Of a stretch of 31,576 nucleotides of DNA, positions 7,625-25,105 are shown piece by piece. The position numbers and the translations under genes are program-made. Source of the DNA: a virus; the IMG/VR virus record IMGVR_UViG_3300042868_005039, positions 1 through 31,576 of that record; one strand, 5' to 3'. The notes beneath the pieces were generated by a model. The model saw only the letters and a list, made by a program, of their open reading frames with translations, made no database searches and was not told where the DNA came from. The stretch's first letter is position 1. The number at the start of each line of letters is the position of its first letter.

Positions 7625-8893
7625 TCATTTCAAACTTACTTCAAAAATCCGGCTGATATTACTTGTTCCTGTTGTGGTAAGCACAAACCGCTTCCCAGTT
7701 ACGTTGATCGCCTTGGTGAACTTAATTTTCTTGTCAAATCCCAACGGCACATTCACGCCATCAACAGTCAGAGTGAGTGTCTGATTAGGGCTTCCAGTCT
7801 GGAATCCTGAACTTAAATAAACCTGCGTCCGTGTTACTGCCTGAGCATAATTCCATGTAAGCGTTGTTGGTCCTGCGGTGAGCCATCTGGTTGCTTCATT
7901 CCCATCAACTGCCTTTGCCGTGTCTGCTCTTGTGTATCCGGGCTGATATGGCGTTCCGGCAATTCTAAAAGTGTTGGTTCCGGTTGGTGGTGGTGGAGGA
8001 GGTGGATTGGTTGAATAATCCGGTAGGTTTGAATAAAACAATGATTTGTGTAATACTGGTACAACGGCAGGATGAAGGTTATACTGCATCGTATTGTACA
8101 AGTGGCAATAACTATTCAAACCCCCAGCCATTCTTTTTGTCGTGCTTGAACAATTTACAGGCGTTGGTGAGCAGGTGATCTCAGCCGAATAGCAACTATC
8201 CAGACGGCCCAATGATACACCTGTTTGGGATTTCCATGCACAACAGTTTTGCGTGTGTGAGATGCCCAAGTTATGAAGAAGTTCATGGGTGAAACAATAC
8301 ACCGAATAGGTGTAATTGAAGGCATCTCCCGGAATGGATTGACCAAACCCACACACAGAGTATTTGACAGTTGTCACATTCTCACGGCTGATGTAGGCAA
8401 TGCCACCAAAGTTTTTGCCAGAGATAAACACATTGAATGTGTCCTTCTTTAACGGATTGGCGTTGCCCCAATTAGATAAAACACTCATTGCATCGGGATA
8501 GATGGCATAAGGATCAGGCGTTGTCCACTTCTTAACCCTAACCAGGTTTATTTTCGGCCCTGCTATGCGCTCCAATATCTGAGAGGATGAATTGCACAAT
8601 CGTTGCAAGTTGGCATCGGCATTCGCACCCCATGCGGTTGTCAAAGAGTAATCCAGTTCAATGTAGACATTGATTGTTTTTCTTGACCTGTAAGTCGGGT
8701 CCCAGAAGTTGGGTTCAGCCTGACCCCGTGAAAGGTAACGTGGATGATCCTCGTTCACTTCAACTTCATCATCGCCAAGATCGGGCGCAATGAATGTTGA
8801 ATCGGTGGTGGCTGATGCCCTATCAGGCATTTGCTTGTTGCATCCTGTAAGATAGACAAGCGCAAGAATGATAAATGGCAATGTGTGTTTCAT
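7625..8893 (-). CDS. Lipoprotein metzincin metalloprotease with a C-terminal F5/8-like domain
   Basis: The 422-residue protein begins with a lipoprotein signal (MKHTLPFIILALVYLTGC, lipobox LTGC, Cys18). The zinc site HELLHNLGISH (203-213) is the long metzincin form HExxHxxGxxH, and NTMQY (Met269) fits the Met-turn. Many cysteines surround it. A run of seven prolines (297-303) links to a beta domain with KAVDGNEATRW, typical of discoidin-like (F5/8 type C) carbohydrate-binding domains. It should be anchored in the host envelope and cut proteins there. It overlaps the upstream DNA-binding gene as ATGA and belongs to the replication operon, so expression is likely early. Confidence 0.85.
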   Translation of the reverse strand: MKHTLPFIILALVYLTGCNKQMPDRASATTDSTFIAPDLGDDEVEVNEDHPRYLSRGQAEPNFWDPTYRSRKTINVYIELDYSLTTAWGANADANLQRLCNSSSQILERIAGPKINLVRVKKWTTPDPYAIYPDAMSVLSNWGNANPLKKDTFNVFISGKNFGGIAYISRENVTTVKYSVCGFGQSIPGDAFNYTYSVYCFTHELLHNLGISHTQNCCAWKSQTGVSLGRLDSCYSAEITCSPTPVNCSSTTKRMAGGLNSYCHLYNTMQYNLHPAVVPVLHKSLFYSNLPDYSTNPPPPPPPTGTNTFRIAGTPYQPGYTRADTAKAVDGNEATRWLTAGPTTLTWNYAQAVTRTQVYLSSGFQTGSPNQTLTLTVDGVNVPLGFDKKIKFTKAINVTGKRFVLTTTGTSNISRIFEVSLK

Positions 8894-9072
8894 CTATCAA
8901 AGTTAGAATTTTCTTGAAAAACTTTTTCCAACTCTTTTTCTCGTACTGCCTTCATCAATAGATCACGCATCAACTGTGAACGGTTTAAATGGCCCAATGC
9001 CCTCAAATATCGGTCAAACTGGTCATCTGCAATCATGAAGCTTATTTTCTGGTTGCTGGAATAATCAACCAT
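8890..9072 (-). CDS. Ribbon-helix-helix-like small protein (60 aa)
   Basis: The start MVDYSSNQKISFMIADDQF is 4 bases after the preceding stop; the alternative at 9102 would overlap by 26. A beta strand (KISFMIADDQFDRYLRAL) is followed by HLNRSQLMRDLLMKAVREKELEKVF, the strand-helix-helix outline of CopG/Arc-type regulators. It overlaps the metalloprotease start by 4 bases (ATGA), so the two are coupled. It may regulate the operon or act on phage DNA. This is a fold-level guess. Confidence 0.6.
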   Translation of the reverse strand: MVDYSSNQKISFMIADDQFDRYLRALGHLNRSQLMRDLLMKAVREKELEKVFQENSNFDR

Positions 9073-9464: not shown

Positions 9465-10782
9465 AGTCTGAGAATTTCATAATGTTAGAATCCCATTTTA
9501 ACGCCAGTAGTTTCGTTTCTCCGGCTCTGAATTTAGCGATTGAAAGTATGCATAGGTTTTCGGTCTCGTATTCATCACCTTCAACCATTGTCGTTCTGGA
9601 TTCACGGAATTGCGGATAGTAACCTGGTCGCATGAGAAACCAGATTGAATCTGCATCTTGTTCAATCGCTCCAGATTCACGCAGGTCTGACAATTGCGGC
9701 ATCTTATCGGATCGGGCTTCAACGGCTCTAGATAGTTGCGACAAGGCAATGATTGGAATTTGCAAATCCTTGGCTAAAATCTTTAACCCTCTGGAAATCT
9801 CACTAATCTCTGATTCCCGATTGCCTTTCTTGTTATCCGATGACATCAGTTGCAGGTAATCCACGCAGAGCAGTTTGATGCCGTGTTGCTTCTTCCAGAT
9901 ATGCGCCCTAGTTCGTAATCGTCTCAATGTCATTCCGGCTTCGTCATTGATGTATAAGGGCCATTTGTCAATTCTCGATGCGGCATCGTAGAGTCTCTGA
10001 CGGTCGTAATTATCGTATTTATCGTTTCGGATTTTATAGGCAAAGACATCTGACTCCATTGAGAGCAACCTTTGAACCAGTTGAACCTGCCCCATTTCAA
10101 GGCTGAACATCCCAACTGGAATGCCTCGCTTGCAATAGGACTGTATAAGGCTCATCAGGAAGGCCGTCTTCCCTTGTCCGGGCCTTGCACCCATAACGAT
10201 CAAGTCCGTGTCTACAAGCCCGCCTGTGGCCTTGTCAAGAGTATTCAATCCGGTTGACATACCTGCAAGTCCTGAGATGTTTTCAATCTCCCATTTTTCA
10301 CGAATCTCACGAAGGGTTTCGGAGATGCTTTTTTCGTCTTTGATGATCACCTGGTTGATCAGGTTCTCCAATCCAGTCTGAACCTTTGCTACACGTTCAA
10401 AGACATCATCCACATCATTGACTGATGAGGTCAGGAGTTGTTGAGCAAACGATCCGATTCCACGTTTGACGTAGGCTTCCAACAGGTAGCGGATGTGAAT
10501 ACTGAAATGTGCAGCTGATGAAACCTTGCCAGACAATTGAGCCAATGTTTTACCACCACCGATGGCCTTGTAGCTTCCGGCCTTTTTAGCCCACTCTGCA
10601 ATCGTCAAAATGTCGATTGGTAGGTTATCATCATACAGGGCTTTTAGAGCCTGATAAATCGTTTTGTGCTTGTCCTCTGTGAATACATCAGCAGAGTTTA
10701 CAAGGGCGAAAAATTCAATCTGTGCATCCCGGTCGATTATGACTGATCCGAGGATGACTTGTTCAAGTTCTGGTTGCTTCAT
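9445..10782 (-). CDS. dnaB: Replicative DNA helicase, DnaB type
   Basis: This 445-residue protein has the DnaB plan. The N-terminal helical domain (about 1-105) opens with the typical EQVILGSVIID, followed by a linker and the RecA-like motor. Walker A is GARPGQGKTA (198-207), the Walker B region reads LLCVDYLQLMS, and QLSRAVEARSDKMPQLSDLRESG is the usual DnaB motif 3-4 region. It unwinds DNA at the phage fork. It starts inside the stop of the initiator-like gene (ATGA). No separate primase is in the window, so the phage may use the host primase or encode one elsewhere. Confidence 0.95.
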   Translation of the reverse strand: MKQPELEQVILGSVIIDRDAQIEFFALVNSADVFTEDKHKTIYQALKALYDDNLPIDILTIAEWAKKAGSYKAIGGGKTLAQLSGKVSSAAHFSIHIRYLLEAYVKRGIGSFAQQLLTSSVNDVDDVFERVAKVQTGLENLINQVIIKDEKSISETLREIREKWEIENISGLAGMSTGLNTLDKATGGLVDTDLIVMGARPGQGKTAFLMSLIQSYCKRGIPVGMFSLEMGQVQLVQRLLSMESDVFAYKIRNDKYDNYDRQRLYDAASRIDKWPLYINDEAGMTLRRLRTRAHIWKKQHGIKLLCVDYLQLMSSDNKKGNRESEISEISRGLKILAKDLQIPIIALSQLSRAVEARSDKMPQLSDLRESGAIEQDADSIWFLMRPGYYPQFRESRTTMVEGDEYETENLCILSIAKFRAGETKLLALKWDSNIMKFSDYASTTF

Positions 10783-11459
10783 TTGTTAATTGTTTTGGAA
10801 GAAAAGGCCAGAGGGCCGGAATGAGTTGTTTGATTTTTATTAAAGTCTTTATCACGTCTTGCCCACATTTCAAGTCTTCTTTCCAAATCCCAGGTCTTTT
10901 CAAGTTCCTGTTTGAATTTCGTTCCCGACTTATTGGGTTCGCCCCAATATTTGTAAAAATCAGAAAGCATTTGTTTAGGATATAATTTTTGGAAAGGTTC
11001 GAGAGTGGAAGCAAACTTTTGTTTGCGCTCTGCAACCGTATTTGTTATAGGTTGTAGGTTACTGGTTATAGGTTTATATATGGGTGTAGGTAGCGGTTCT
11101 GGTAGCGGTATAGGTAGCGGTTCACTTTGTGGTATTGTTGAGGTATAGGTAGAGGTGCTTTTTAGCACCACTAAACTGATCTTAGGAGACTTCCACATAT
11201 TCTCTCCTTTTTCGTAATTGAGAAGTCCCCAATTCTGCAAATCATCAAGACAAGCATAGTAGGTTTTCTTGCTTCCAATGCAAGAACCAGTCATGCCCAA
11301 ATCAATTGGACATTTGAACCATTCAACCCAATTGTTGCGATTGTTCTGGTTTAGCAAAAACATATAAAGACTTATGTGCTGAGGCTTAAAGTCGTATTCT
11401 TGGCTAAACACAATTGAGTAAAAAGCAGAAATCTGATGAAATCCGTTAATTCTCATCAT
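10779..11459 (-). CDS. Replication initiator-like protein with an internal proline repeat (226 aa)
   Basis: The N-terminal half (about 1-105) resembles winged-helix phage replication proteins: FYSIVFSQEYDFKPQHISLYMFLL, then SKKTYYACLDDLQNWGLLNYEKG as recognition helix and wing. A proline-leucine segment (about 110-130, PLPIPLPEPLPTP) links to a C-terminal module (FYKYWGEPNKSGTKFKQELEKTWDLERRLEMWARR) often seen in Bacteroidota phage initiators. It lies directly upstream of dnaB with an ATGA overlap, the usual initiator-helicase pairing. It probably opens the origin and loads DnaB. The proline repeat DNA may itself be the origin (11089-11121). Confidence 0.7.
   Translation of the reverse strand: MMRINGFHQISAFYSIVFSQEYDFKPQHISLYMFLLNQNNRNNWVEWFKCPIDLGMTGSCIGSKKTYYACLDDLQNWGLLNYEKGENMWKSPKISLVVLKSTSTYTSTIPQSEPLPIPLPEPLPTPIYKPITSNLQPITNTVAERKQKFASTLEPFQKLYPKQMLSDFYKYWGEPNKSGTKFKQELEKTWDLERRLEMWARRDKDFNKNQTTHSGPLAFSSKTINK
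11089..11121. repeat. Three 9-bp direct repeats, 12-bp spaced, inside the initiator gene
   Basis: GGTAGCGGT occurs at 11089, 11101 and 11113, exactly 12 bases apart, with degenerate further copies on both sides and AT-rich sequence nearby. This could be an iteron-type origin within the initiator gene, as in lambda O. The repeats also encode the 4-residue E/I-P-L-P repeat, so a purely protein-level cause is possible. Confidence 0.5.
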
Positions 11460-11752
11460 GAAGCCATTACTAAAGCTATCCTAAACTTTTCCAATGCATC
11501 ATAATAGGCATGCTCATTTGGTTCTTGCCATGAAAAATATAATGACAATTCTTGGTAAATTTTTTCAATTCTATCCAATGACACACCCATTGGTTGTTCT
11601 ATCCCAAGATTGGCAATTAAGATTTCTTGTAGTTGATTTTTAAGGTCTTCCGGCAAATCAAAAGTTTCCAATGCATAAACAATATAGGTGTTTGGCAAAT
11701 CGTTTAATAGATGGCCTTTGTATTTCCCAAATGGGAATTTTTCGTAATTCAT
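11456..11752 (-). CDS. DUF3820-type protein (98 aa)
   Basis: The N-terminus FPFGKYKGHLLNDLPNTYIVYALETF is the signature of DUF3820, a small fold also found at the C-terminus of exodeoxyribonuclease X-like proteins. The rest is helical. It is the first gene of the initiator-dnaB operon, overlaps the initiator start as ATGA, and lies 31 bases after the 3' stem of a structured RNA with its own promoter. A part in DNA processing is possible from the family, but its activity is unknown. Confidence 0.7.
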   Translation of the reverse strand: MNYEKFPFGKYKGHLLNDLPNTYIVYALETFDLPEDLKNQLQEILIANLGIEQPMGVSLDRIEKIYQELSLYFSWQEPNEHAYYDALEKFRIALVMAS

Positions 11753-11778: not shown

Positions 11779-11887
11779 AACGAAAAAGCCCGAAATCAGG
11801 AGGTCGGAGTCTCCATCATTCAGGCTTTTGTTGGTTTTGGAAAACCAATATTTTCGAATCGGCTCCGACCCCGATTGCCTTTCGGCA
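11779..11887 (-). ncRNA. Structured RNA copy 1 with a putative kissing loop
   Basis: Minus strand, 5' to 3': hairpin TGCC/GGCA (11887-11876); hairpin AATCGG/CCGATT with 8-nt loop GGTCGGAG (11870-11863); perfect hairpin TTGGTTTT/AAAACCAA (11848-11831); long stem of 11 bp (one wobble; 11829-11819 with 11794-11784), a symmetric TGAT/TGAT internal loop, 4 bp GGAG/CTCC and an 8-nt loop ACTCCGAC (11810-11803), ending in CTTTTT. Loop bases CTCCGAC pair perfectly with GTCGGAG of the second hairpin (7 bp). A TATATTTG box lies at 11898-11891, so the RNA starts at its first hairpin. A second copy with a different but matching loop pair lies at 24502-24590. Function is unknown: a small RNA or a leader that controls the DUF3820/initiator operon. 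Confidence 0.75.
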
Positions 11888-11890
11888 TTG

Positions 11891-11898
11891 CAAATATA
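11891..11898 (-). promoter_or_regulatory. -7 box of the structured RNA copy 1
   Basis: TATATTTG on the minus strand matches TAnnTTTG and is 4-5 bases before the first hairpin of the RNA. The -33 region is weak (GTGTTTTT about 23 bases upstream). Confidence 0.6.
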
Positions 11899-24455: not shown

Positions 24456-24464
24456 GGTTCAATT

Positions 24465-24497
24465 TTTTGTAAAAATACAGCAATTTTTGTATCTTTG
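24465..24497 (+). promoter_or_regulatory. Promoter for structured RNA copy 2 and the HNH gene
   Basis: TTTTG (24465-24469), 20 bases, then TATCTTTG (24490-24497). The predicted start falls at about 24501-24503, the 5' end of the structured RNA. Confidence 0.8.
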
Positions 24498-24501
24498 AAC
24501 T

Positions 24502-24590
24502 GTTGCGGAGTAGTGGCCAAAACAAAGAACTTGGTTTTTAACCTTAAAGCCTGATTGAGCAGTCCACTACCTGTTTGATCGGGCTTTTGA
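24502..24590 (+). ncRNA. Structured RNA copy 2 with a putative kissing loop
   Basis: The architecture matches the RNA at 11887-11779. A weak first hairpin (TTG/CAA) presents the loop GGAGTAGTGG (24507-24516). A middle hairpin GGTT-TTT-AACC (24533-24543) sits within TTGGTTTTTAACC. A 17-bp stem with wobbles (24546-24562 with 24571-24587, opening AAAGCCTGAT and closing ATCGGGCTTT) is capped by an 8-nt loop TCCACTAC (24563-24570). The loop's CCACTAC pairs perfectly with GTAGTGG (24510-24516). A TTTTGAATTTTT tail follows, so it may terminate weakly. The HNH start is 10 bases downstream. Function unknown: free small RNA or attenuator-like leader. Confidence 0.7.
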
Positions 24591-24596
24591 ATTTTT

Positions 24597-25103
24597 ATGA
24601 AAGTAGAAGAAATCTGGAAAGACATTGTTGGATTTGAGGGGCTTTATATGGTTAGCAGCTTGGGTAATGTGAAAAGCCTTAATTACAATCACACCAAAAA
24701 AGAAAGAATATTAAGTGCTAATGGGAAAAGGTATTTAATGGTTGTCCTTTCGAAAGAAGGCAAAACATATCCGTTTTTGGTTCATAGAGTTGTAGCTACT
24801 GTATTTATTGAAAACCCCGAAAACAAAAAGACTGTCAATCACATTGACGGAAACAAATTAAATAATACGGTTCAAAATTTGGAATGGGCTACTACCTCAG
24901 AGAATCATAAAGCAGCGTTTAAACTTGGATTAATGAGTCAGACGGGAGAAAAATGCTCAACCCATAAATTGAAAGAATGGCAAGTTTTAGAAATCCGTGA
25001 ATTGATCGGCAAAAAGACTCAGGAAGAAATTGCTGCAATGTATGGCGTAAAGCGTGGAACTATTTCCTGCATTAAATTAAGGAAACTATGGAATCACATT
25101 TAA
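24597..25103 (+). CDS. HNH homing endonuclease with NUMOD4 motif (168 aa)
   Basis: The order is NUMOD4 (EIWKDIVGFEGLYMVSSLGN, residues 5-24), a HNH core (LVHRVVATVFIENP, VNHIDGNKLNNTVQNLEWATTSENH, with H63, H82 and N104-type residues) and a C-terminal helix-turn-helix (TQEEIAAMYGVKRGTISCIKLR). This is the layout of free-standing mobile HNH endonucleases of phages. It is on the plus strand between minus-strand virion genes, as expected for a mobile insert. It is preceded by a promoter and a structured RNA that may repress it. Confidence 0.9.
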   Translation: MKVEEIWKDIVGFEGLYMVSSLGNVKSLNYNHTKKERILSANGKRYLMVVLSKEGKTYPFLVHRVVATVFIENPENKKTVNHIDGNKLNNTVQNLEWATTSENHKAAFKLGLMSQTGEKCSTHKLKEWQVLEIRELIGKKTQEEIAAMYGVKRGTISCIKLRKLWNHI

Positions 25104-25105
25104 AC

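Follow-up and report, generated by a model that had tools for sequence, protein, structure and literature searches.

Two places in the window, by which we mean the whole 31,576-nucleotide stretch of viral DNA analysed here, itself an entry of IMG/VR, had been read from the sequence alone as copies of one small structured RNA closed by a kissing loop, and the question raised by this locus is whether such an RNA exists and what it does. Both elements, with the parts described, could be located and read in the window, copy 1 on the minus strand at about 11889 to 11779 and copy 2 on the plus strand at about 24499 to 24590. Their features and the genes that follow them are listed here with the basis for each assignment; P1, P2 and P3 are hairpins in 5′ to 3′ order.

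11891 to 11898, minus strand: promoter −7 box of copy 1, TATATTTG, from the sequence; a TAnnTTTG-type box is kept upstream of relatives.
11779 to 11889, minus strand: whole leader RNA of copy 1, from folds, a score of 25.2 bits with covariance model R1, and compensatory changes in L496 and L512.
11876 to 11887, minus strand: accessory hairpin of copy 1, TGCC-GAAA-GGCA, from the fold; also in L026, L496, L512 and L506, and absent from the copy 2 type.
11858 to 11875, minus strand: P1 of copy 1 (ATCGG/CCGAT), from the fold; its loop holds the kissing segment GTCGGAG at 11869 to 11863.
11831 to 11848, minus strand: P2 of copy 1 (TTGGTTTT..AAAACCAA), from the fold; variable among relatives.
11784 to 11829, minus strand: P3 of copy 1, terminator-like with an 8-nt loop, from the fold; stem and loop covary in L026, L496 and L512; kissing segment CTCCGAC at 11809 to 11803, a U-run at the hairpin foot, and a symmetric UGAU/UGAU internal loop with possible tandem G.A.
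11456 to 11752, minus strand: 98-aa ORF directly after copy 1, DUF3820-like (Pfam QSregVF_b).
10779 to 11459, minus strand: 226-aa replication-protein-like ORF downstream of copy 1, ahead of the DnaB-type helicase.
24466 to 24497, plus strand: promoter of copy 2, from the sequence; TTTG at 24466 to 24469, a 20-nt spacer, and TATCTTTG at 24490 to 24497.
24499 to 24590, plus strand: whole leader RNA of copy 2, from the fold and 127.3 bits with model R1, which includes this sequence itself.
24501 to 24524, plus strand: P1 of copy 2 (TGTT..GG/CC..AACA), from alignment A3; kissing segment GTAGTGG at 24510 to 24516.
24533 to 24543, plus strand: P2 of copy 2 (GGTT/AACC), from the alignment.
24546 to 24587, plus strand: P3 of copy 2, 17 bp with loop TCCACTAC; all 17 pairs are in the fold, and L480/L481 carry compensatory stem changes; kissing segment CCACTAC at 24564 to 24570, U-run at 24585 to 24588.
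24597 to 25103, plus strand: NUMOD4-HNH endonuclease ORF after copy 2, its ATG 9 nt past the stem foot; the cargo at this site differs in relatives.

Minimum-energy folding gave the long terminal stem with its 8-nt loop in both copies (z = −2.9 for copy 1 and −2.2 for copy 2), as the sequence-only reading had it. The first hairpin assigned to both was recovered in the same way for copy 1; in copy 2, P1 is short and the nested minimum-energy fold prefers another weak pairing, GGCCAA/TTGGTT, so that P1 there rests on comparison with relatives. The two proposed 7-nt contacts, GTCGGAG/CTCCGAC in copy 1 (8 nt counting a flanking G-C) and GTAGTGG/CCACTAC in copy 2, are complementary. The TAnnTTTG box had been placed at the 5′ end of the RNA. 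We take it instead, from general knowledge of Bacteroidota sigma factors, to be the −7 box of a Bacteroidota promoter, in which case the RNA begins downstream of it; in copy 2, the TTTG 20 nt upstream of the box is read as the −33 element. The copy 2 endonuclease gene lies between opposite-strand genes with no same-strand gene upstream, and the copy 2 promoter is therefore the only evident one able to serve it.

Scans of IMG/VR and of annotated phages added about 45 leaders built in the same way, with no fewer than 25 distinct contact sequences among them. Homologues came up in scans that were independent of the loop contact. Among viral contigs, pattern scans found close relatives of copy 2 (L079, L100, L110, L221, L247, L249, L250, L254, L480 and L481), a sequence identical to it (L037), a copy identical to copy 1 (in L028), and the divergent members L026 and L189. 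Covariance model R1, built from copy-2 type sequences, recovered copy 1, L026, L189, L496, L512 and a second L221 copy (L221:13469-13575) whose P2 and kissing sequences (GGTGAAG/CTTCACC) are completely different. The TTGGTTTT hairpin, regarded there as a shared element, is present in the window, but an unrelated hairpin stands in its place in this second L221 copy and most of the distant members lack it. The contig of L221 (G008) carries at least three leaders, each with its own kissing sequence (GGGTCACAG, GTAGAGG and GGTGAAG).

Compensatory change in the contact, claimed originally from two copies, extends over many homologues. In L496 and L512, which are relatives of copy 1, GTCGGAG/CTCCGAC has become GTAGGAG/CTCCTAC and stem changes are compensated; among copy-2 type sequences, changes in P3 of L480/L481 are compensated, and a T/A swap in the kissing segment has its A/T counterpart in P3 in 11 of 11 sequences (alignment A3). 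Stem changes that preserve pairing were thus found as described. In alignment A5 (16 sequences), the contact was paired in 95.6% of cells and 21 cells were double-changed, compared with a mean of 7.4 by shuffling, and none of 500 shuffles, which leave relatedness partly in place, reached the observed contact pairing; sliding the contact by one to three columns lowered the pairing to 31-47%. In nested folds both contact segments stay in loops, unpaired at 0.76 and 0.86 against an average of 0.44. When the upstream region was shuffled in sequences identical to the window copies, matches as long appeared in at most about 0.5% of trials. With the slide control and so many distinct contact codes, chance is untenable, and the homologues with their compensatory contact changes strongly support a genuine RNA whose loop-loop contact is a conserved tertiary interaction. 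The original observation was correct, and the phenomenon is larger than it described.

Eighty viral loci were also chosen by their replication protein, and terminator-like hairpins in them were scored for an upstream match of at least 7 nt. Such a match was present for 25 of the 32 hairpins with an upstream box and an ATG within 45 nt (0.037 with shuffles) and for 13 of the 130 hairpins without a following ATG. Of the 71 loci with enough upstream sequence, 38 have a leader in the 1 kb before the replication gene, and 19 different contact sequences occur among these leaders; no locus has one on the opposite strand, and several of the 33 loci without a recognised leader have one by eye or with a looser script.

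Few nucleotides outside the promoter and stems are conserved across subfamilies. The internal loops of P3, read from the sequence, do recur. Often a symmetric loop lies below the kissing loop, as UGAU/UGAU in copy 1 and L512 and in similar form in L026 and L496, and would fit tandem G.A pairs; in the position that UGAU/UGAU takes in copy 1 types, L506, L507, L592 and L593 carry AGUA...GAA loops that would suit a bulged-G (loop E) motif. The internal loop may serve as a hinge. A second covarying contact, AGAGTTA/TAACTCT versus AAGGTAA/TTACCTT, was seen by eye in L507 (1208-1354) and L508 (2854-3000). The same two leaders have an ORF running through P3 (MKIFKSPIRPVLCS...GVFVL) and ending in a stop that overlaps the replication gene's start codon; a leader-peptide reading of L507, L508 and L592 was dropped, since the frame is not kept across members.

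What the RNA does is approached through its position. Across members, an ORF begins 4-32 nt past the terminal hairpin, which leaves no room for another promoter; this distance is 9-10 nt for the copy-2 type, 9 nt in copy 2 itself and 31-32 nt in copy 1, and in L254 the first ATG soon reaches an early stop. The ORFs close behind the two window copies had gone unmentioned in the first reading. The elements are consistently placed with a terminator-like hairpin beside a start codon, and the view that each is the 5′ leader of a gene, and not the free-standing small RNA first proposed, is well supported by this placement. Copy 1 is followed by the DUF3820-like ORF, then the replication-protein-like gene, then a DnaB-type helicase. 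Relatives of its replication gene occur in the same place behind the same leader architecture (P1 near the 5′ end, P3 with a U-run, ATG), and relatives of the 226-aa protein come directly after leaders in L507, L508 and L547. Most leaders precede replication operons or endonuclease genes: the first gene is one for a replication protein, a small ORF immediately ahead of such a gene, a NUMOD4-HNH or HNH endonuclease or, judged by eye, a GIY-YIG-like (L048), ParB-like (L533) or methylase-like (L110) ORF.

Copy 2 occupies a cargo-exchange slot (window 24456-25105), found at the same site in L037, L079, L110, L247, L250 and L481. Several phages share the two flanking genes there, of 350 and 288 aa and both on the opposite strand, and have a promoter and leader that hardly differ, but the cargo gene between varies: it encodes HNH proteins (33-51% identical) or is the L110 ORF. 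In L100, where the leader is also nearly identical, identity of the flanking proteins is just 37-46%, which implies either strong constraint on the leader or its recent transfer. The HNH endonuclease encoded at 24597-25103 has a C-terminal Pfam match to Sigma70_r4 (residues 126-159), a segment that is probably a DNA-binding helix-turn-helix.

One could envisage that P3 is a full terminator, that the downstream gene is expressed by leakage, and that the hairpins at both ends together with the kiss make a very stable small RNA acting in trans on other RNAs or proteins. The promoter, compact fold and terminator-like end do match a small-RNA gene, as does the position of P1 within a few nucleotides of the expected 5′ end. 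We nevertheless consider this unlikely: a trans-acting RNA needs no fixed placing, yet in all members of the set a start codon follows the element after 4-32 nt, the leader is kept while the cargo gene changes, and the downstream mRNAs of the main class showed no shared target sequence.

With the start codon so close beyond P3, and no same-strand gene upstream of copy 2, expression would have to pass P3, and the gene would be made only from transcripts that do so. The P3 foot is 75% T, a value that is partly inflated, as the U-run statistics are, because the descriptor demanded TTTT near P3, whereas regions upstream of ordinary ORFs in these contigs are 45% A and 27% T; U-runs are weak in some members (L496, L512, L588-L594). 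These weak U-runs would suit a leader acting on translation or mRNA stability, in which P3 and the kiss shield the 5′ end or control ribosome access and the U-run, as an AU-rich region, serves ribosome binding. Strong Shine-Dalgarno signals are lacking in Bacteroidota, and P3 ends near enough to the AUG for an initiating ribosome to reach it in many members. Against this, the upstream regions of ordinary genes in the contigs are A-rich and not T-rich, and the A-tract and U-tract at the foot of P3 are arranged as in intrinsic terminators; we regard such a leader as quite improbable.

If P3 acts as a terminator, an alternative pairing might be expected to oppose it. However, pairing of the P3 5′ arm before the 3′ arm is made was 0.47, versus 0.45 with shuffled upstream sequence, and classical attenuation by alternative pairing therefore finds no support; a possible antiterminator-like pairing, GGUUUU/AAAGCC, occurs in window-type members only. 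Given that no general antiterminator was found, the loop contact itself is the likeliest gate. We lean slightly toward a cis-acting, attenuator-like 5′ leader in which the loop of the upstream hairpin pairs with the loop of the terminator hairpin and gates read-through. Transcription would start a few nucleotides past the TAnnTTTG box, and the nascent RNA would form P1 near its 5′ end, sometimes a variable P2, and then the GC-rich P3 with its U-run, in the form of an intrinsic terminator. The P1 and P3 loops would pair over 6-12 nt, P3 would terminate a share of the transcripts, and the loop contact would be the control. In the version that we prefer, the P1 loop would catch the emerging P3 loop before the P3 3′ arm is made, and this capture would change the rate at which the terminator hairpin forms, and with it the level and timing of read-through. 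The structure and cis arrangement are well supported, as comparison among members establishes the predicted fold, the covarying contact, the U-run, the position before the start codon, and the repeated occurrence ahead of replication operons and endonuclease genes; that the leader regulates, in which direction and by what signal, if any, is what we infer from them.

Among cultured phages, Cellulophaga phage phi13:2 has a leader directly before replication gene gp006, with a 9-nt contact (CTCTCACAA/TTGTGAGAG). Riemerella phage CRP5 (L597) has two related leaders, at about 8790-8975 on the plus strand and about 24735 on the minus strand, with 12-nt contacts. Both precede small ORFs followed by annotated antirepressor genes, and a P3 segment that is complementary to the P1 loop of the leader is also complementary over 12-13 nt to the first codons of the ORF. 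This arrangement resembles the c4 antisense immunity RNA (RF01695) of phages P1, P7 and P22, likewise a phage leader RNA with loop complementarity, and would have the P3 loop pair with the start of the downstream message while the P1 loop competes. For the main class such an antisense function is already disfavoured, and overall we hold it very unlikely: in nearly all other leaders, both window copies included, there is no significant complementarity to the start region, the complementarity of most members stays inside the leader, and the c4 covariance model matched neither the window, nor CRP5, nor the other member loci scanned.

The leader was absent from Flavobacterium phage 11b, Cellulophaga phi39:1, Bacteroides phage BU2-1 and an 8.3-kb stretch of Tenacibaculum phage Gundel_1, and DNA similarity to copy 1 among annotated phages consisted of promoter-like or chance short matches only. 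The phages that carry leaders appear to infect Bacteroidota-type hosts. An exact-pattern scan of genome contigs gave no member by eye among the Bacteroidota matches listed; models R1 (3 Bacteroidota genomes) and R2 (395) gave no match under strict filters that weaken the result; and replication-protein relatives occurred in 31 of those genomes, with no leader in the 30 neighbourhoods analysed. As the Bacteroidota genomes searched yielded no member, the class may, to judge from these weak negatives, be mainly one of phages and not of resident prophages.

The RNA had been matched to no named class, and the Rfam searches agree. The scan of the whole window against Rfam 15 had no match over either RNA at E≤1, local scans of the window RNAs returned only far-sub-threshold MicC (opposite strand) and mir-991, and 20 loci with other members returned nothing; nor was a description of the element found in Rfam or the literature searched. 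Elsewhere in the window, a sub-threshold match to the histone 3′ UTR stem-loop (11149-11194; 24 bits, cut-off 34) lies within a coding region and was dismissed as chance. The element is a structured RNA class absent from Rfam, and its nearest kinds are terminator-based attenuators and kissing-loop antisense systems. It shares with transcription attenuators and riboswitch platforms a promoter-proximal leader, a terminator-like hairpin abutting the gene, and possible control of read-through: hairpin and U-run come after the promoter and before the start codon, TTTT having been one of the search criteria for the protein-selected set. Unlike in these systems, no conserved antiterminator was found, a conserved ligand-pocket-like core was not evident, and the loop of the terminator hairpin itself contacts, and covaries with, an upstream hairpin. 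Plasmid kissing-loop antisense pairs (ColE1 RNA I/RNA II, and the pT181 and pIP501 attenuators) are similar in their loop-loop pairing of about 7 nt, in a sequence that drifts yet stays complementary, and in their tie to replication genes, but here one transcript bears both loops and no divergent antisense RNA gene was seen. The HEARO/omega RNA of IscB-IsrB also adjoins an HNH nuclease gene. In contrast, the present RNA stands as 5′ leader before many unrelated genes and has no guide segment; the HNH proteins are homing-type NUMOD4-HNH endonucleases, that of copy 2 having NUMOD4 and HNH_3 and not being of the IscB/IsrB type, and copy 1 precedes a DUF3820-like gene. HMP2_4078, a candidate structured RNA of human-gut Bacteroidetes, lies near phage replication (D5) and integrase domains (PMC8040213); it would seem to differ in being described as palindromic and not a predicted terminator.

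The results suggest an undescribed RNA control element before phage replication and endonuclease genes. The covariation of its tertiary contact is unusually clear, and occurs at sites where phages control DNA replication and selfish endonuclease genes; the slot at copy 2 is an expression slot whose cargo gene is exchanged behind an almost constant promoter and leader. To our knowledge, little is known of transcript-level regulation in Bacteroidota phages. The mechanism is accessible to experiment because the cultured phage phi13:2 has a member and CRP5 a related form. We propose, tentatively and with more doubt than confidence, that this is a widespread, phage-specific class of leaders in which a kiss between the P1 loop and the terminator loop, and not an antiterminator, would gate attenuation of replication operons and homing endonucleases, and that the fast-changing loop code may insulate leaders from one another within a phage or from those of co-infecting phages, or may let a terminated leader act on its kin.
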